From a virus: a stretch of DNA of 36,313 bases. The position numbers were made by a program, and so were the translations under genes. The notes beneath the pieces were generated by a model. The model was given only the letters and a program-made list of their open reading frames with translations, made no database searches and was not told the origin of the DNA. The stretch spans positions 1 through 36,313 of IMG/VR virus record IMGVR_UViG_3300025326_000125. One strand, 5' to 3'. Of this stretch, positions 3,210 through 31,674 are shown piece after piece (positions within the stretch are counted from its first letter, which is position 1; each line of letters opens with the position of its first letter).

Positions 3210-3250
3210 TATATTAGTTTAGGTTTATTTTATTGTCTTCAAAGAATTTT
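3210..3250. repeat. 41-bp direct repeat, copy 1
   Basis: An exact 41-bp sequence covering the 3' end and stop region of the Ala/Asp-rich gene recurs at 3778-3818, at the 3' end of the upstream gene. Both copies encode the same C-terminal FFEDNKINLN and a short stretch after the stop. Identity at the DNA level shows a recent duplication or gene conversion. Confidence 0.9.
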
Positions 3251-3765
3251 ATAACCGCTGTAATGAATGCCTTTTTATAAGCAGCATCAGCAGCATCAGC
3301 ATCAGCAGCATAAGCAGCAGCATCAGCAGCATCAGCAGCATAAGCACCATAAGCAACAGCATAAGCAGCAGCAGCAGCATCAGCATCAGCATCAGCATCA
3401 GCAGCATCAGCAGCATAAGCAGCATCTCGCCTCTTTGCAAGCAAATCGTCTCGCGTTATTTTACCGGCATTAAAGTCATCTATTGCATCCAAGCACTCAC
3501 GAACTCTTTTGTCATTTGGGTATTTGTTTTCGTAAATAGGCAATACGACCCTAGCTAATATTAACGCAAGGTCAATGCGGTTTTTGGTAGTCATTTCACA
3601 CGCATTAATAAACCACCAACGTTTGTCTTTCATTGGTATTTCGGAGTTCATTATATCAGCGATGGTGATTTCATTCTGTTTAATGAACGAAAGTTTTTCT
3701 GCCTGTTCTTCGGAATAGCAGCCGCGATTATCCATCACGTATTTAGGGGTGAATACTGATTTCAT
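3214..3765 (-). CDS. Ala/Asp/Tyr low-complexity repeat protein
   Basis: A 183-residue protein. The N-terminal 110 residues look like a normal helical domain (MKSVFTPKYVMDNRGCYSEE ... DDLLAKRRD). About residues 112-165 are a degenerate repeat of Ala with Asp or Tyr at every second or third place, encoded by a GCA/GCATCA/GCATAA-type tract on the plus strand at 3280-3424. The last 11 residues, KFFEDNKINLN, are identical to the C-terminus of the next gene upstream. Alanine-rich AAY/AAD repeats of this sort are known from many phage proteins of unknown function and are predicted helical. The tract can probably change length by slippage. Starts 16 nt after the preceding stop. Confidence 0.7.
   Translation of the reverse strand: MKSVFTPKYVMDNRGCYSEEQAEKLSFIKQNEITIADIMNSEIPMKDKRWWFINACEMTTKNRIDLALILARVVLPIYENKYPNDKRVRECLDAIDDFNAGKITRDDLLAKRRDAAYAADAADADADADAAAAAYAVAYGAYAADAADAAAYAADADAADAAYKKAFITAVIKFFEDNKINLN
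3276..3428. repeat. Trinucleotide-type low-complexity tract (GCA/TCA/TAA units)
   Basis: About 150 bp built from gcagcatcagcagcataagc-like units in varying order, all in multiples of three. It encodes the Ala-Asp/Tyr region on the minus strand and generates long spurious ORFs (Leu/Met-rich and His/Gln-rich) in other frames. Expected to be length-variable. Confidence 0.85.
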
Positions 3766-18621: not shown

Positions 18622-20856
18622 ATGCCTTTATTTGTAAATACAAGCAGCGTAAGACCCAACAGGCTTACCGATGAGAAGAACGAAAAGTATCACAGCGACT
18701 ATGGCCGTTGGACTCTTAATTCTTTAAACCATCCACTATATAGGAGGTTCGTTACAAAAACGCTTATCAATTGGTCATTTTACAAAGGACGTGAAGGTCA
18801 GTGGATATTTGAAGAAGACCTTGAGGGATTTTTTCTTGATGAGTCTGGAGACACTAAAAATCGTTTAAAAATAGCAAAGAACCTCATCCGCCCAATGGTT
18901 GAGCAGTATGAGGGTAATGCAATTCGTTTAGCGTTTGAAGCGAAGGCAAGGGCTGTTTCTGATTTTGCTATAAACAGAAGAGAATATGAACTTGGCCGAA
19001 TCCAATTTTTTGAACAGGCGGCTAAGGCCGTTCCGTCTTTTGATAAGGCAATTCGTGACAAAATCCCATTAGGCAAAACTCCTGCTGAAACAAAGGAAAT
19101 ATTTGAAAATTCTTGGGTCAATAGGAACGAAAAAGACATTAATCACCTGATTGCGTTTATAGCTGAAGATGTAAATATGCAGGAGATAAAAATACAAACC
19201 ACCAAGCATTTAGCAATTTCTGGTCTTGGCGTTTATAAAGGTTATCCACAGAACTCGGTTTATATGGCAACCGCTGTTGACCCGTTGTTTTTCTTCTGGG
19301 ACTTAAGCGCAAGAAAACCAGATTTAAGTGATGCCTCGTTTATGGGCGAGTGGTATTACCTTGACACCCCTTCCATCTTTGAAAGATGGCAGGACATGAA
19401 CAAAAAAGACCGAGAAGCAATTGAGCAGTATTCTCGTAATCAGAGCATTGACGTTCATAGAATGGTTAATGAATATTACATGGTTAATGGGGATAAAATT
19501 CCTGTTTATGAAACCTACTGGAAAGACTGCGAGGAGCAGGAATACGGGTGGGTTATTGACCAATTTAAGTATCCTTATTTCGCTCAGATTAATCATGAAG
19601 ACTCTGAATATACAGATGCAGATTTAATTGACCCCCCAACCAAGGCGCATGAAAAAGTACTTAACGGGAAAAAGAAAGCTAAAATCTATGTTGATGTTTT
19701 AAGGTATTGTATATTTATTCCAAAGGAAGAAGTCGGCAATCAAGACGGAAATGACATTATCCTTGAGTATGGAGAGGTTCCTTATCAGGAAACGTATTCA
19801 TTTTCTCCAAGCAATGTTGAGTTTCCTTATAAATGCTACGCTTGGTCTTATGATAAAGGAGATGTGCCTAGTCCGTTAGATGATGCAATAGACCCACAAC
19901 GATTTATCAACAGGATATTGTCAGTAGCAGAATCACGTATTAATAATTCTCGTGGGACAGGAACGGTTATCGCTAAAGACGCTGTTGACCCTCGTGACGG
20001 AGAAGAGTCTGTTACAAGAAATGTAAATCAGTCGAAAACAATTTACCTTGACACCACTCGTTCAGGAAGTGTTCAAAACTCAGTTGGGTCGTATGGTTCA
20101 AATTTAGGTGGCGACACAACGGCCTTGTTCGATATAATTCAACAAATGCAAAACACCATTCAGGACGTTACTGGGGTGAATAGTGCCATGACGGGAACGC
20201 AGGGCGGTAGTGATGCTTTGGTTGGGGTAATTCAATCTCAAATTCAACGAGGTTCTTTAATACAGGAGCCATTTTATTATGCGCTTTCTTCAATAATGCT
20301 TCAAGGTTATCAACACATGGGGTCTGTTGGAAAGCGTGTATATTATGATAACCCACGCAGATTGGCGATGATTGTTGGTGACGAGGGGCTTCAAAACATA
20401 ACCGTTTCTAAGGATATGCTTATGGAGGATTTCCGTACATTTATTAAGCGCGTAGAAAGCCACGAAGTTGCTGTTAATAATGGAAACGCTACGCTGTGGA
20501 CGTTAATTCAGGCAGGGTTAATTGATAAAGTTCGATTTGCTAATTTATTTAACAGAGGAGATGCTGAAGATATTGCCGCTGGATTAAGGGAGTATCAGGC
20601 TGAGTTGTTATTGGCCTCACGCGAAAATGACGACCAACAAGCTCAGGCACGATTAGCCGAACAGGAACAAATGAAGCAAATGGCCGCCAAGATTGAGGCG
20701 ATGGAAGCCGCTGCTGCCGGAAGGGAAGACGCAAATAAAGCTGCCGACAGAGAGCTTGAGTACAATAAAACGTATGTAAAGGAAGCAGCTAAGAATGATA
20801 GAGAAAAAATAAAGGTAGGACAAGAGGCAAATGAATTACCAGAGGGCATGGTATAA
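18622..20856 (+). CDS. Portal protein
   Basis: A 744-residue protein that would form the dodecameric channel at the capsid vertex. Evidence: place between terminase and scaffold/capsid genes, length, a central region with alternating beta strands, the stretch GSDALVGVIQSQIQRGSLIQ typical of the portal helical stem/crown zone, and a long alpha-helical coiled coil at the C-terminus (about 660-735, ENDDQQAQARLAEQEQMKQM onward) that could be the barrel. N-terminal segment RNRLKIAKNLIRPMVEQYEG-like wording (KNRLKIAKNLIRPMVEQYEG) is the usual clip/wing entry. Starts one base after the preceding stop. Confidence 0.85.
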   Translation: MPLFVNTSSVRPNRLTDEKNEKYHSDYGRWTLNSLNHPLYRRFVTKTLINWSFYKGREGQWIFEEDLEGFFLDESGDTKNRLKIAKNLIRPMVEQYEGNAIRLAFEAKARAVSDFAINRREYELGRIQFFEQAAKAVPSFDKAIRDKIPLGKTPAETKEIFENSWVNRNEKDINHLIAFIAEDVNMQEIKIQTTKHLAISGLGVYKGYPQNSVYMATAVDPLFFFWDLSARKPDLSDASFMGEWYYLDTPSIFERWQDMNKKDREAIEQYSRNQSIDVHRMVNEYYMVNGDKIPVYETYWKDCEEQEYGWVIDQFKYPYFAQINHEDSEYTDADLIDPPTKAHEKVLNGKKKAKIYVDVLRYCIFIPKEEVGNQDGNDIILEYGEVPYQETYSFSPSNVEFPYKCYAWSYDKGDVPSPLDDAIDPQRFINRILSVAESRINNSRGTGTVIAKDAVDPRDGEESVTRNVNQSKTIYLDTTRSGSVQNSVGSYGSNLGGDTTALFDIIQQMQNTIQDVTGVNSAMTGTQGGSDALVGVIQSQIQRGSLIQEPFYYALSSIMLQGYQHMGSVGKRVYYDNPRRLAMIVGDEGLQNITVSKDMLMEDFRTFIKRVESHEVAVNNGNATLWTLIQAGLIDKVRFANLFNRGDAEDIAAGLREYQAELLLASRENDDQQAQARLAEQEQMKQMAAKIEAMEAAAAGREDANKAADRELEYNKTYVKEAAKNDREKIKVGQEANELPEGMV

Positions 20857-22240: not shown

Positions 22241-23482
22241 ATGCCTTTATACAACCTCCCCAATGATACGTTCAATAACGTAAATTTGAACGCCCTTGGC
22301 TCGCAGTATGCAGCCGACAATGGACACGACATTTCTCTATTAGTAGAGAAAGCGACTAACAAAGCAATCTTTGATTCTGCTCCACAGCAGTTCTTTGACC
22401 TTAAACTATTAAACATGAAACAGTTCATGCAAGTTAATAGTGACGAGTTCTTTTTCAAAGAAGCAGGATACCAGCGTGAGCCGGTAGTTGCTACTGGCGG
22501 TGCTGCCGCGGTAGTTTATCCTACGGCACAAACTTTTGTCGTTAGTTCGTTAGATAACATTTCAACTGACACAATCTTAATTTACCCTAATAACCAAAAA
22601 GGTAATGTTACTTTAATCAATCCTGCAACTAACGAAATTACCGTTAGACCTTATACAAACGACAGTTTACCTGCTGTTGTGGCTAACGACCAATTTAGCA
22701 ACCTTTCAGGGGTTGAGGGTGATGGAGCTGACGGATGGGCTCAATATTTCCGTATGTCAACAATCGAGCGTTTCAACTTTGTTCAACTTTTTAGCAAGAC
22801 AATCCGCTACGGTGAGGTTGAGTTGCATAAATTGAAGAACGCTGCAATTACGAACAACTTCCTTGAAATGGAGCGTAGTGCAATGATGAAACAATTCCGT
22901 ATTGACATCTCAAATGCTTTCTGGAACGGACAACGCGGTGAGGTAACACTTGCAAGCGGTCAGCCTGCAAAATCTACCGGTGGTATTTTTACCTCAATGG
23001 TATCGGCTGGTTCGCCAAATGCGTTGCTTACATCAAGCACCTTGACTGACGGTTTTGAAGACTTAGTATTATCTTCTGAGTATGGAGAATACGGGGCGAC
23101 TCGTTTTGCTTTTATGACACCTCGTTTACACTTGTTGCTGTCTAAGGCATACAAGGACGACAAAACTCGTTACACACCAAAAGACACTGACGTTACTCAG
23201 CTACAACTTAACAGAGTTGACATAGGGTCTTCTAAAATTGTATTAGTTCCTTATCAGCGTTTTGCTGACCGCGCAAGCTTCCCTGCTGCTTTTGAAAACC
23301 GTATCGTATTACTTGACATGAAGAACATTAACCTTGTTCAAATGTGGGGTGAGCGTTCAGGAGACACGCTGTCTCGTACTGATGGAATTCCTAAGCGCTA
23401 CAAGGAAATGTGGGTTGACGCAAACATGGGAGTTAAGTTTAACAACCCTCTTGCGTGTGCTTGGGGCGATGTAGTACTTTAG
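22241..23482 (+). CDS. Major capsid protein
   Basis: A 413-residue protein with a mixed alpha/beta pattern consistent with the HK97 fold: helical N-arm (HDISLLVEKATNKAIFDSAP), a beta-rich loop (AAVVYPTAQTFVVSSLDNIS), a long spine-like helix segment (IERFNFVQLFSKTIRYGEVE, MERSAMMKQFRIDISNAFWN) and a C-terminal beta-rich part (SKIVLVPYQRFADRASFPAA, IVLLDMKNINLVQMWGERSG). Regular, less AT-rich codon use suggests high expression. It follows the scaffold and is followed at once by a strong terminator, as for many capsid genes. The fold assignment is from pattern and context only. Confidence 0.85.
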   Translation: MPLYNLPNDTFNNVNLNALGSQYAADNGHDISLLVEKATNKAIFDSAPQQFFDLKLLNMKQFMQVNSDEFFFKEAGYQREPVVATGGAAAVVYPTAQTFVVSSLDNISTDTILIYPNNQKGNVTLINPATNEITVRPYTNDSLPAVVANDQFSNLSGVEGDGADGWAQYFRMSTIERFNFVQLFSKTIRYGEVELHKLKNAAITNNFLEMERSAMMKQFRIDISNAFWNGQRGEVTLASGQPAKSTGGIFTSMVSAGSPNALLTSSTLTDGFEDLVLSSEYGEYGATRFAFMTPRLHLLLSKAYKDDKTRYTPKDTDVTQLQLNRVDIGSSKIVLVPYQRFADRASFPAAFENRIVLLDMKNINLVQMWGERSGDTLSRTDGIPKRYKEMWVDANMGVKFNNPLACAWGDVVL

Positions 23483-25143: not shown

Positions 25144-25862
25144 TGATTTATAGGACTGTTATTTTTAATGCGCTGAAATCATTTAATGAGGTATTTGATG
25201 ATGCTAATATTAAACGTAATCAGGTAATGTATTGGGCGTTGGTTGTTGTTAATCGCCTTCGTGTTGACCAATATAAAAAGACTGAAAGTGGAATATTTAT
25301 TTCCACGTTCTCTTCTGTTGTTGTTGTTCGCGATAACAAAGGGCGACAATACTTTGATTTGCCGGCAATGATTATGGATTTACCAAACGAGGGCGGAGTA
25401 GAGTATATTACGTACAATATTGAAACAGGGTGCTGTTGTGATGGTGATAATTTTAGTCAGATATTTTTTCAACCAACAACGCCTTCAAAATCGCATAGAC
25501 TTTATGGAGATGAATATGAGAAACCCTCAACGACCAATCCTTATTTTTATCGTATTGGTGATAAGCATGATGGCGTTAAGGTGGATAGGATTTATTTAGT
25601 CGGTACTGATTGCATTGAAATAAAAGACGTAGAAATTGCTTTATTAGCAACTCTTGACCCGAAAACAATATGCAGTCTTGATGATGTTATTCCTTTGCCG
25701 GATGAGCGTGAGCAAGAACTTATGCAGGGTATCCTTGAAATCGGTAGATTTGTAATGATGATGCCAAAAGAAAGAATTAATGACGGTACTGAGGAAAAGG
25801 GAGCTACCCCACAAACTCAGGTTCCATCAGCAATAGCACAAGACCAAACAACTGAAGAATAA
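25143..25862 (+). CDS. Connector / ring-type protein 2 (239 aa)
   Basis: A helix at the start (FNALKSFNEVFDDANIKRNQ, YWALVVVNRLRVDQYKK), then a beta-rich core containing VEYITYNIETGCCCDGDNFS and YLVGTDCIEIKDVEIALLAT, and a disordered C-terminus with Gln/Thr/Glu repeats. The three adjacent Cys are unusual for a cytoplasm-assembled virion protein. It is overlapped on both sides (TAATG), so stoichiometric expression with its neighbours is likely. Probably a neck ring protein; no motif proves it. Confidence 0.65.
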   Translation: MIYRTVIFNALKSFNEVFDDANIKRNQVMYWALVVVNRLRVDQYKKTESGIFISTFSSVVVVRDNKGRQYFDLPAMIMDLPNEGGVEYITYNIETGCCCDGDNFSQIFFQPTTPSKSHRLYGDEYEKPSTTNPYFYRIGDKHDGVKVDRIYLVGTDCIEIKDVEIALLATLDPKTICSLDDVIPLPDEREQELMQGILEIGRFVMMMPKERINDGTEEKGATPQTQVPSAIAQDQTTEE

Positions 25863-26635
25863 TGTATCAGAGCGATTTTGTAAGTTTGAATCATATTTTA
25901 GCAGAGGTAACTGTAACGGTTAACGATGAGAAATTTCGTAATGGACTTACGAAAGGCTGGTATGTTTCTAGGATTCAAGATGCCTTGCAGGAACTTGCGT
26001 TTGACACGTTTTTCCAAAAAGTTACGCTTGATTTAGATTTGCCAACCGATACGCTTCAATTAGATTTTCCTGAAAATATTTTCAACATACGTGAACTTTA
26101 TGTTTACAACGGAGACAACTGTTGCGCCCCAACGAGCAGTCAGGTAGTTCACTGGAAAAGGGAATTTAATAACAAAAACGGAAAGGGTAATGCTTATACG
26201 GCACGAATTAAAGACCGAGGATTTAGCAATGGTAATGACCCGTTTTTACCTAATAATGGATTTGAGAGTTCAAGTTATTGGTTTGGATTTAAGTACTACG
26301 CTAATGTTGCTGAAGGTAAAATAATGTTTAGCTCAGATTGTCGTGGTTTTACGAAGGTTCGTATTGTTGCTAATGGAGCTGGCTGTCCAATTGGAGACCT
26401 CCCAGTTATTCCTAAATTTTTTGAACGCGCAGTAAATGATTACGTGGAAGAGCGATTTTTCAATACAATGAAAACAAGGGACAGGGCTATGGCTCCAAGA
26501 TGGAGTGAGGCTTATCAAAAATTAAACGACCCACGAGTAGGTAGTTGGAAAAAAGCAACTATGAGAATATCAAGCCTTCAAACGTGGGAGAAACAATCAC
26601 TTGAAGAATATTTAAGTTCAATGTGGCATAAATAG
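25862..26635 (+). CDS. Tail-tubular / connector protein 3 (257 aa), P22 gp4-like position
   Basis: N-terminal helical part (WYVSRIQDALQELAFDTFFQ) then strands (VTLDLDLPTDTLQLDFPENI, FNIRELYVYNGDNCC), a Gly/Asn-rich insertion, a beta hairpin ending in IVANGAGCPIGDLPVIPKFF, and C-terminal helices (RAVNDYVEERFFNTMKTRDR, MAPRWSEAYQKLN). A helical start, the strand core and a C-terminal helix that carries Arg/Glu and aromatic residues are also seen in tail-tube adaptor proteins of podoviruses such as P22 gp4 and T7 gp11. Position immediately before the giant neck protein agrees. Confidence in virion role is good, in exact family moderate. Confidence 0.68.
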   Translation: MYQSDFVSLNHILAEVTVTVNDEKFRNGLTKGWYVSRIQDALQELAFDTFFQKVTLDLDLPTDTLQLDFPENIFNIRELYVYNGDNCCAPTSSQVVHWKREFNNKNGKGNAYTARIKDRGFSNGNDPFLPNNGFESSSYWFGFKYYANVAEGKIMFSSDCRGFTKVRIVANGAGCPIGDLPVIPKFFERAVNDYVEERFFNTMKTRDRAMAPRWSEAYQKLNDPRVGSWKKATMRISSLQTWEKQSLEEYLSSMWHK

Positions 26636-26647
26636 TACTTTTATCCT

Positions 26648-29086
26648 ATGAAGCAAACGCACTTTTTAAAGGATTTAAGAAACTACGCAATCGGAGCAAA
26701 TAGAGACGTAAATCCTGAATTATTTGAAGCACAAGAAGCCCAATACTGGGACGCATCCAATATGCGTACTAAATCTATGGACGGGGACAATGACGTTGCT
26801 AAAAAGATAAAAGGTGAGGTTTTGTTGTTTCCTAATATTGATAATCGCTGTATAGGCGGAACCGGACTCCCTTTATCGTCTTTATACGAGTGTATTGGTG
26901 TTTCTGAACTAAACGGAAACATTGTTGAGTTTTGGGCTGACCCAATGGCCGTAGAGCCTTCTTTGATTCGTGTTAATGGCAAGATTGTATTAATGTCGCC
27001 CGATTTTCCAATTACGGCAAAATATCCTCTTCAGATTGCAAAGAACGAAGCTTGTATTGGTGGTGAAATCTATATTACCGATTACAACGTTCCTCCAATG
27101 CTATTCAATATTAAAGACCTGCTTGTGAACAGCGGAATCAACGTAGGCACAACAATTGGACTTTGCACTACAAAATATTTTGAAGACTTTAATATTCAGG
27201 AACATTTACTTGTGTTGACAAGAGTTCTTGACCATCCTGTGTTTATAAAACTGGACAGCTCTTTTGTTGGTTATGATGAGGTTTTAGGTGCTGGCGGTAT
27301 TCCGGTAGGGTATTACGCTTATTCATTTAGATACGTAACCGATGGTGGCGACAGAACAGCATTTTCGGCATCTACTCCGCAAATACCTGTAATGAAAACA
27401 TTTCGTGCCGGATGCGCTAATTACCCATACGTACAAACTATTTCTAAAGACCCTGATATTTCTGTGCCGAGCATTTATGGTGTTCATATAAGATTCAGAA
27501 TAAACAATGAAGCTAACTATGATTTTGTGGAAGTCCGCAGGGACAGGTGGAACGCAGGAGACCCTTTAGGAACTCCGGCCATTAGTGAGGTCATTGGTAA
27601 GATTGATATTGTCGCAGGGCAGTTTGATGTGCTTGATGTACTTGATTATGGTGCTGCCGCTGAGGAAACTTTAAGCGGAGACGATATTACGGGCGTAATG
27701 TCTGCGATAAGCAGAGCTAAGGCCATTCGTTATTTTAATCAGCGATTATATTTAATGAACATTGAGTATGCTTCCCGTGATATTACACTAGATATTGAGA
27801 TGATTGGGGAGGGCACGCCTGCTGTAATTTTCCCAACCATTGAAAACATTAAAAAGATTGGACACAACGACCCGTTTAAGGCTACTTATAATAAATCTCA
27901 GATGCGCGGTGAAAAACGTGGATTTGGAATTATAGCATGGGACGAACAAGGTCAATGGTCTTATGCAAAAAGAATAAATGGAGCTGACAATTATCAGCTT
28001 CCAAACCGGAGAGAGCCAACCTCAACCTTTACTGAAGATACGAGCTACGGGGGCACTGTAACTGCGGCTAATATAAATGGAGTTGTTGGGCAAACACATG
28101 AGGTTTTTGACCTAGAAGAAGCCGTTGCGAAAACTGATAAATGTTTGTACGCAAACATTATGGAGGACAAGGGGCGTAAGTTTAAAACCAAGGTAAATAT
28201 TGATGACTGTACGAAAGCGCAGGACGAAGGATTGACCGATGGTCTTGGGTATGTTACGGTGAATAAGTTGGGATACCGTCCATTTACTCCTGTTTCTCAG
28301 GACAGCACTGATTGTCGTTATTTGAATTATCGCGTTAATCTTGAGGTTGCGAATAAAGCTAGTGACGGGTGGAAAGAATACCTTCCCATTGGATTTGAGC
28401 CAAGATACTATTCTATGGGTGTTGGATTTCAGGGTGTTGATTCAAGTAAATTTCCTGTATGGGGGAAGGCTTTTAGCATTGTAAATACTCCTGCTGCTGG
28501 AAAAGTTATTGCACAGGGGCTTGGTTATTATAAGCTGAAAAGTGGAGGTGGTTTTTTTGGAGCGAACACGAGTAAATCTACACACCAGCTTGCTGCTTAT
28601 TTCCCAGACTTAGATGAAAGCACTGGAATAAATCCAGCCATTATTGACGCTATACAATCAGACCCAACCGCGTTTGCTATACAGTTAGTTTCTCCTGTTG
28701 GGTTTTTCTCTGAGGTGTTTTCTTTTAACAATAAACCGTTTCTTGGAGACAGGGATACTGGTGTTGATTTTATTACTTATTGCCGAATTTTAAAGGATAA
28801 CGGACAAATAAATCCAGACGAAAACCCAAATATGGGTATTAATGGCTCAGGAGAAAGGTACGTTTCTTATGGTAAATGGAGAGCATCAACTCAGTTCTCA
28901 ACAAGCTTCCCTGCTGGAGCAAACGGTAATAAGATATTCGACATTACCGGAATAGCAGACCACACGGAATCTTCTACCCGTTCAAAGTATTTTGACATCA
29001 CAACGGTTACAGGGAACAGTACGCTGTCGGTGAATTTGAAGGCAGCGACCCAAAGGTTCAAAACTGGCATGAACCAGTTTATATAA
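26648..29086 (+). CDS. Giant neck/tail (muzzle or stabilisation-type) protein, N-terminal part before a frame break
   Basis: 812 residues in this frame. The start (FLKDLRNYAIGANRDVNPEL, AQYWDASNMRTKSMDGDNDV) is typical of large crAss-like tail-stabilisation/muzzle proteins, where a repeating strand core binds around the neck. Many segments such as YITDYNVPPMLFN, VGYYAYSFRYVTDGGDRTAF, QRLYLMNIEYASRDITLDIE and GKWRASTQF look like a propeller or similar beta array. The frame ends at TAA 29084-29086 after residues (AATQRFKTGMNQFI) that do not fit the preceding style. The -1 frame continues the protein as FEGSDPKVQNWHEPVYIINI. So this is one gene broken near 29,035. Confidence 0.8.
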   Translation: MKQTHFLKDLRNYAIGANRDVNPELFEAQEAQYWDASNMRTKSMDGDNDVAKKIKGEVLLFPNIDNRCIGGTGLPLSSLYECIGVSELNGNIVEFWADPMAVEPSLIRVNGKIVLMSPDFPITAKYPLQIAKNEACIGGEIYITDYNVPPMLFNIKDLLVNSGINVGTTIGLCTTKYFEDFNIQEHLLVLTRVLDHPVFIKLDSSFVGYDEVLGAGGIPVGYYAYSFRYVTDGGDRTAFSASTPQIPVMKTFRAGCANYPYVQTISKDPDISVPSIYGVHIRFRINNEANYDFVEVRRDRWNAGDPLGTPAISEVIGKIDIVAGQFDVLDVLDYGAAAEETLSGDDITGVMSAISRAKAIRYFNQRLYLMNIEYASRDITLDIEMIGEGTPAVIFPTIENIKKIGHNDPFKATYNKSQMRGEKRGFGIIAWDEQGQWSYAKRINGADNYQLPNRREPTSTFTEDTSYGGTVTAANINGVVGQTHEVFDLEEAVAKTDKCLYANIMEDKGRKFKTKVNIDDCTKAQDEGLTDGLGYVTVNKLGYRPFTPVSQDSTDCRYLNYRVNLEVANKASDGWKEYLPIGFEPRYYSMGVGFQGVDSSKFPVWGKAFSIVNTPAAGKVIAQGLGYYKLKSGGGFFGANTSKSTHQLAAYFPDLDESTGINPAIIDAIQSDPTAFAIQLVSPVGFFSEVFSFNNKPFLGDRDTGVDFITYCRILKDNGQINPDENPNMGINGSGERYVSYGKWRASTQFSTSFPAGANGNKIFDITGIADHTESSTRSKYFDITTVTGNSTLSVNLKAATQRFKTGMNQFI

Positions 29087-31674
29087 TAAACATTATAAAA
29101 AAGGTTGCCGATATTGCTGATACAAATATTACAAATTATCAATACACAGGTCACTATCAAAAAATTGAATCACTTATAGGAATTAGCGATGGTTCATCGA
29201 GTCAAAACTATATTCTTGTTGACGAAAGGTGGGAAGACTGTATTCAGTCTGTAAATGGTCAGGTTCAAAACGGGTATAGTTATTTAGAAAGATTTGTTCA
29301 GATTGAAGATGTTGTTGGTGATAAGAGGCTATGGGTTAATGTTACCAATAAAACAACACTACAAATAACTGCGATTCTTACTGACTTGCAATCGTTTGGG
29401 TTTGCTGATGTTGTTGAGCCAATTACCTCTATTGTTCATCGTGTTTATGGTGTATATAAAAACTCTGAAAGCATCAATGGGACTGCTCCTGAGTATTTTT
29501 TAAACTTTAATTGGTTTGATACGGCTTTTTCTCAAGATTTTTTCATCCCACAAGAACTGTTTAAGATTATTGTTTTGTACGATAACCGTGTCCCTATTCG
29601 TGTTTTCGGTGGCGACACATGGATTGGTGAATCTGTTTGGGCTGTAAAGGACAAAGTTTACAACAAAGGCGCTGACCCTGTTAATAATTCAGAGGACAAC
29701 GGAGACGGAACCGGAGATGACTTTAGATTAAATATTGCCTTTCCTTATCGAAAGTATAATTTGAATCCACGTATTTTTATTATTAACAATACGACTGGAT
29801 TTTTAGCAAACAACATACAAAATAAAGAAGAGTTTAAATTTGATGACTCTGCTGGTCTTTCTCCGTGTCAGGTTCGTCAGCTTCTTGCTATGTGGACTGC
29901 TGAAACGAGAATTAATTTACCGCTTGGATTTAATGACGAGGGCATAAAGGAAAGCAACGACCAGTTCTTCCCATTGAAGAATTACGTTATGCGTCCTTAT
30001 AATTTTAGTGATAATAAGTTTCCAGACGGAGCCTTTGAAGTGTATAAGGATAATAATATTCAGGATGCCTATGAGGATGATTATGGTAATGAATATTTAT
30101 CATGGGGGTTAGGTGGTTTTAGGTTCTTGCCTCAAACCAATATTGATTACAGTAAGCCTGACGACACAAAGGAATTTACTACCGTCCCAAAAGTTGGGTT
30201 TACTGAGCAAAACTTATTTTGTACACGAGCTATTTGGTCTGAAACAAGACCAATAAATGTTCAAGACACTCCAAGCGTAAGAACATTTCCGGCACAAAAC
30301 GTATTTGATGTGTCTGACGATACCGGTGAAATTAAGTTTGCTTGGAGCGCAATTTCAGATAATGGTAATAATTTATACGCATTTACTGATTCCGGCATTG
30401 TAATGTTGCTTGTTGATAAGCGTCTTATCCACGAGCTAAGTGGACAGGAATTGGCTACGGTTGGCTCTGACATTGGTGGAATTTTGAGTGAGATTTTCAT
30501 TAATAAAGAAATAGGAATGTCAGATGAAATGTGGCGTTCAGCATCAGAATATTCAAATCAATTGTTTTGGTGTAATTCTGATTCGTCATTTAAGTTTTCT
30601 TCAAGCGAATTAAGTGATATTGGTCGTAGAAATTACCACAGTAAACTGTATCTCGAATACTTGAGTGTTTTCGGAGCCGGATATTCCGACAGGGTTACTG
30701 GTGTTTATAATATGTATCACAATGAGTACTGGGTTAATTTTAAAAAGAAGGCAACCGATGGTGGTGATATTGCTTTTGGAGATGGAATCTTACACGAGGT
30801 TAATCAACTGCTAAATGTGGTAAATCCAGAATATGATGTTACTATGTCCGCAACTGACGCTTATGTCGGGACTGATGGCTCGCTTCCGATTATAATTACT
30901 GGAGGAACTGGAGGTGAAATTTTCCTTGGCGGAATTAACAACAACTTGTTCACAAATGCTGTTACTATTTGTGTTGCTCCAGATGTGGTTGGTTCTTTTA
31001 CTGTTAAATATAAAATACCAGCCGGAGCTGTGGTTGATATTATCACAATCAGCGCAGGTGAATGTTATTGTTTTGACCACCTTCCTCCAAATGGAACTGA
31101 TTATAATAGGTGGACTGCCGAGCCATGTAATCCTTTTGGTCAAACAGTACAGCCTTTTGATGATTTTAAATATCCAACACTTGTTTACGGAAACGAAAGC
31201 GTTAACCGTCAAGTTGGGGCATGGCAAGGAACTTTCGACTACAACTTTGACCGATACCTTTCGTTTAACAACAGGGTGTTTGGAATGAGGGCAATGGAAA
31301 CTTATGAACTTGGAAAAGGCAGAATAATTAACGGGGCTTTAATTGAGTCAAGTTTAATCAGCGTTTGTGCCGCAACTCAGGTTAAGGATAAGGAGTTTGT
31401 AAGAATAAGAATAAACAGCGACAACAAGCCGGTACGTGTTGAATTTTTTAATAACTTCGAGCAAGTTTTAGCTGACGATGTTCAGGCTGTGATTGATACA
31501 ACTTTGAACGTAAATGGATTAAGAAATTATTATGGCTACGAACAGTTTGTTCCGAGAAAAATAGTTTCAAAAGATAGGATGCAAGGACGGTCTATGTTGT
31601 TTAAAATTATCCACAACTTAGATGAAGATTTTAAAGTTATTACCACCGAATTAGAATATAAACCATTAAAATAA
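28996..31674 (+). pseudogene. Giant neck/tail protein, C-terminal part in the -1 frame
   Basis: An open frame from just after a TGA at 28993-28995 to TAA 31674. There is no ATG, GTG or TTG for the first 390 nt (the earliest TTG is at 29386), yet the sequence before it is plainly protein-coding (QNWHEPVYIINIIKKVADIA, YILVDERWEDCIQSVNGQVQ, FVQIEDVVGDKRLWVNVTNK). It must therefore be the continuation of the upstream ORF. It goes on through beta-rich repeats to a conserved-looking end (QFVPRKIVSKDRMQGRSMLF, KVITTELEYKPLK). One extra T in the TTT at 29035-29037 would fuse both halves into about 1,675 residues. Sequencing error, real mutation, or non-canonical frameshifting are all possible. Confidence 0.78.

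Follow-up and report, generated by a model that had tools for sequence, protein, structure and literature searches.

Programmed -1 ribosomal frameshifting is known in tail genes, those of the gpG/gpGT-type tail chaperones. In crassviruses, the hexameric muzzle sits at the tail tip, where it gates ejection, and its length varies through insertions in the IG2 and crass domains; in phicrAss001 the muzzle is gp44 and R1 is gp43 (PMC10172136). The window analyzed here, a 36,313-bp linear IMG/VR virus record read as a crAss-like phage contig, contains a muzzle gene that is intact in relatives and that here is very probably interrupted by a single private, frame-breaking lesion at 28994-29008. This lesion is most likely a ~10-nt deletion and very probably no recoding site.

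The portal protein of the window (18622-20856; Pfam P22_portal, E=5.6e-18; PHROG portal, E=3.8e-26) and its major capsid protein (22241-23482; Pfam SU10_MCP, E=1.7e-12; 72-80% identity to contigs L002-L006) are encoded on the forward strand, as are all features below unless stated otherwise, and further structural genes lie in a run alongside this P22-type portal and SU10-like capsid. The gene directly 5' of the muzzle (25862-26635) is intact and conserved in relatives, and its position, together with the gene order of phicrAss001, suggests that it may encode a tail-barrel ring protein. At 3217-3765 on the reverse strand, a predicted protein with an Imm5-like immunity-protein domain was found (PF21805, E 1.6e-8; PF14423, E 2.7e-6), an unexpected cargo in a crAss-like phage.

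The muzzle gene is spread over two reading frames. Frame 2 is open from the ATG at 26648 to a premature TAA at 29084-29086; frame 1 opens at 28996, just after a TGA at 28993-28995, and stays open to 31674, with ATG, GTG and TTG all absent before the TTG at 29386; a codon view of both frames agreed with the first-pass annotation on these frame and stop positions and on the missing start. No stop occurs in the 892 codons of frame 1 (other two frames: 42 and 120). By homology, frame 2 encodes the N-terminal part of ~786 residues (26648-29005; 61% identity to L004 by tblastn up to residue 786, at nt 29005) and frame 1 the remaining ~888 codons (29008-31674), while the out-of-frame end of the upstream ORF (29006-29086) has no homology to relatives. 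The stretch at 29008-29385, outside every ORF that has a start, shares 58% identity with L004, 53% with L006, 61% with L002 and 59% with L074, and its nucleotide differences are concentrated at third codon positions, as they are on either side. This conservation with coding-type differences indicates that the downstream part was translated in frame 1 until very recently, if it is not still. Protein identity and third-position bias are also similar on both sides of the break, and codon differences of a purifying type on both sides point to a break that is recent or artificial. On this homology, the ORF at 26648-29086 and the start-less frame at 28996-31674 are two parts of one predicted protein of ~1,675 residues, a split tail protein as the first-pass annotation had proposed, with both parts matching relatives in a single frame. 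Introns, an alternative code or tRNAs need not be invoked, as the premature TAA is directly followed by a second TAA and ARAGORN found no tRNA in the window.

One alternative is a pair of genuine genes or products, of which the second would begin close to 29386 or at an internal site, and the TTG at 29386 is a possible start for it. Against this, the 126 codons before that TTG are conserved (53-61% identity) with coding-type differences, and the relatives in which both gene ends are present (1424-1730 residues) have single ORFs; halves encoded as separate genes in homologues, the alternative considered earlier, were not seen. We therefore regard a two-gene arrangement as very improbable.

The product of the broken gene is identified as the crassvirus tail muzzle by its Pfam match and by the predicted fold of its closest relative. 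The upstream part matches crAss_MUZ (PF25731) with E=2.9e-6 and 26.1 bits, just under the curated cut-off of 27, and the same family is matched by 6 of the 18 intact full-length relatives, with a best E of 3e-33. An AlphaFold model was generated for residues 1-1024 of the L004 protein, junction included (pLDDT 78, pTM 0.76). When this model was used for a fold search, phicrAss001 muzzle chains were the only PDB matches with E<=0.001 (7qol_P, 1.8e-14; 7qok_A, 4.9e-14), at a modest TM-score of 0.36 for the fold as a whole, which in the muzzle comprises ring-joining, propeller, IG1/IG2 and crass domains, and crAss-like 'stabilization proteins' were also matched in BFVD. A profile search of the PDB by sequence did not find the muzzle; only the fold search did. 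The earlier name of 'neck protein' is better replaced by crassvirus tail muzzle (crAss_MUZ, 7qok/7qol). Two size classes, ~1,420-1,550 and ~1,660-1,730 residues, are seen among the family's full-length muzzle ORFs, and a ~140-residue stretch in the C-terminal part of the muzzle, at ~30751-31173 of the window (residues 568-709 when frame 1 is translated from 29050), is unaligned in L006.

Relatives were gathered by capsid-, portal- and motif-based scans, with the capsid protein of the window as query, and the set surveyed at the junction came from the capsid alignment and a WHEP-motif scan. The closest relatives found were L002, L004, L006 and L007, in which both parts of the window gene are matched in a single frame, and L006 carries a complete muzzle ORF of 1,547 residues. 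Among the junction-covering IMG/VR contigs, 39 have one uninterrupted frame and one is broken (a count of rows that include a few near-duplicates). Neither half of the muzzle gave a match in single-protein scans of viral contigs, tblastn against 50,697 phage records gave none for the muzzle or the capsid protein, and a scan of bacterial and archaeal genomes returned no relative.

The window muzzle is not encoded as one uninterrupted polypeptide, and homology places its break at 28994-29008. In the L004 tblastn, the match in frame 2 extends to 29005 and that in frame 1 sets in at 29008, and 35 relative ORFs put the break in this cluster. When all switch sites were scored against five relatives, the best total was obtained at 29002-29008, with sites favoured by single relatives spanning 29002 to 29029. 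A switch upstream of the TGA at 28993-28995 is ruled out, as this stop lies in frame 1 and sets the 5' limit for any switch into that frame. The lesion interval can accordingly be drawn as the 14 nt at 28994-29007, between the hydrophobic anchor 'KYF', whose last frame-2 codon (Phe, 28991-28993) ends at 28993, and a Tyr at 29008 in frame 1 that is found in nearly all relatives. In the L004 model, this interval corresponds to the end of the strand at residues 769-775 and the turn after it, which suggests that the break falls in a length-variable beta-hairpin turn. The additional T that had been suggested at 29035-29037 is therefore misplaced, and with each of the five relatives scored, a switch at 29035/29038 falls short of the best site.

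The spacer between the two anchors is 14 nt in the window. None of the 30 intact aligned relatives has fewer than 24 nt; the spacer measures 8 codons in 19 of them and 9, 11, 12 or 14 codons in the others. A MAFFT alignment of the DNA with L004 and L006 likewise opened one 10-nt gap at ~29006/29007. Loss of ~10 nt is favoured because one event then suffices for the shifted frame and for the short spacer, while a single lost base accounts only for the first; judged from relatives at ~50-62% identity, three codons and one further base were thus most likely lost in a single event, and the single-base lesion of the first-pass annotation was probably missized. Loss of exactly one base, moved upstream to this site in a hairpin turn that had previously become three codons shorter than that of any relative, would be in keeping with the net frame change of one base modulo 3 and with the variable spacer length in the family, but it would need two events and a 5-codon spacer below those of all 30 relatives, and we consider it unlikely.

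Programmed -1 frameshifting private to the window phage, yielding a short and a full-length muzzle, was weighed on the same sequence. The conserved downstream frame would fit such an arrangement, as would hairpins around 29022-29080, which in single-sequence folds are mildly more stable than shuffles (z -1.8 and -2.3) and which count against the deletion favoured here. However, as the first-pass annotation had noted, the overlap at 28996-29086 holds no slippery heptamer X-XXY-YYZ in the zero frame; half-matches alone occur there. At the homology-defined site, a -1 slip at 28994-29008 would mispair, with no codon pair able to re-pair well when read from the codons. The spacer would moreover remain shorter than in any relative, and the two-frame arrangement is not conserved, as the 39 uninterrupted contigs attest. 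Recoding had been envisaged in the case that the break was shared by relatives, which it is not, and with 39 related contigs open at the site a conserved recoding site is excluded in the family as sampled, in line with the earlier preference for an indel, which we also find far likelier. Frameshifting confined to this phage is accordingly given hardly any weight, and we hold just as little expectation that lineage-specific recoding at a non-canonical site generates a full-length muzzle alongside a truncated one. Nothing in the sequences compared supports a functional two-frame arrangement.

Frame breaks were also surveyed in the sister contigs. Outside L073, the ~1.0 Mb covered by homology in 69 contigs yielded one credible break, a rarity that counts against the preferred reading of a private lesion; it lies at L067:12625-12670, in a conserved gene located between those for capsid and muzzle, and adjoins a T6 run. 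Within 21 kb, L073 (IMGVR_UViG_3300002242_000279) has four or more frame breaks, together with Ns, and among the genes affected are the portal, the muzzle and two that lie between capsid and muzzle; the gene calls of this error-rich contig are not to be trusted. The only other broken muzzle is that of L025/L073; in window coordinates its break lies ~100 nt further upstream, and it shifts the opposite way and falls within an A6 run. With another site, an opposite shift, a homopolymer and further breaks in the contig, it was rejected as a second supporting case. Apparent breaks in L002 and L071 were false calls: there, two genes overlap whose counterparts form a single fused ORF in L038. The small basic protein concerned is a single 131-residue ORF in L038 (14348-14740) and L042 and two overlapping genes in L002 (13952-14325) and L071 (8091-8520), located before the muzzle in L002 and after the portal in L071. 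In the window, the muzzle break is the sole frame break in 19.6 kb of homology-covered sequence, the first 12.8 kb being almost without coverage. Overall, L073, L067 and the window indicate that private frame breaks do occur in such records.

As written, the frame-breaking lesion, probably a deletion of ~10 nt in a hairpin turn of an otherwise whole muzzle gene, would yield an mRNA that directs a truncated protein of ~812 residues and leaves the remaining ~888 codons without a start. An assembly or sequencing artefact appears somewhat the more probable origin, and a real loss-of-function mutation carried by the population sampled is not far behind. A pure sequencing error is weakened as an explanation since loss of 10 nt is atypical of base calling and the site is not a homopolymer. 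Were the lesion genuine in the population, phages with a disabled tail tip would have been abundant enough to dominate the assembly. The result is mainly a caution that this record should be annotated with one broken muzzle gene, and not with two ORFs or a recoding site, and the spacer-length comparison illustrates that, with the help of relatives, an apparent single-base frameshift can be corrected in position as well as in size.

Compared with the assembly or sequencing frameshifts of L073 and L067, the window break is likewise private and located in an otherwise conserved structural gene; unlike the breaks of L067 (T6 run) and L025 (A6 run), it lies off any homopolymer and looks like a loss of ~10 nt. 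Two overlapping tail-gene ORFs in a -1 relation recall the frameshifting of gpG/gpGT-type chaperones, from which the window differs in that its site has no slippery sequence, is unconserved and belongs to a muzzle gene and not a chaperone gene. Relative to phicrAss001 gp44 (PF25731; 7qok/7qol), the window copy is frame-broken, and sequence identity is ~10% over the aligned fold of the L004 model; in its Pfam match, the predicted fold of its relative, a similar gene context and length variation, it resembles this muzzle.
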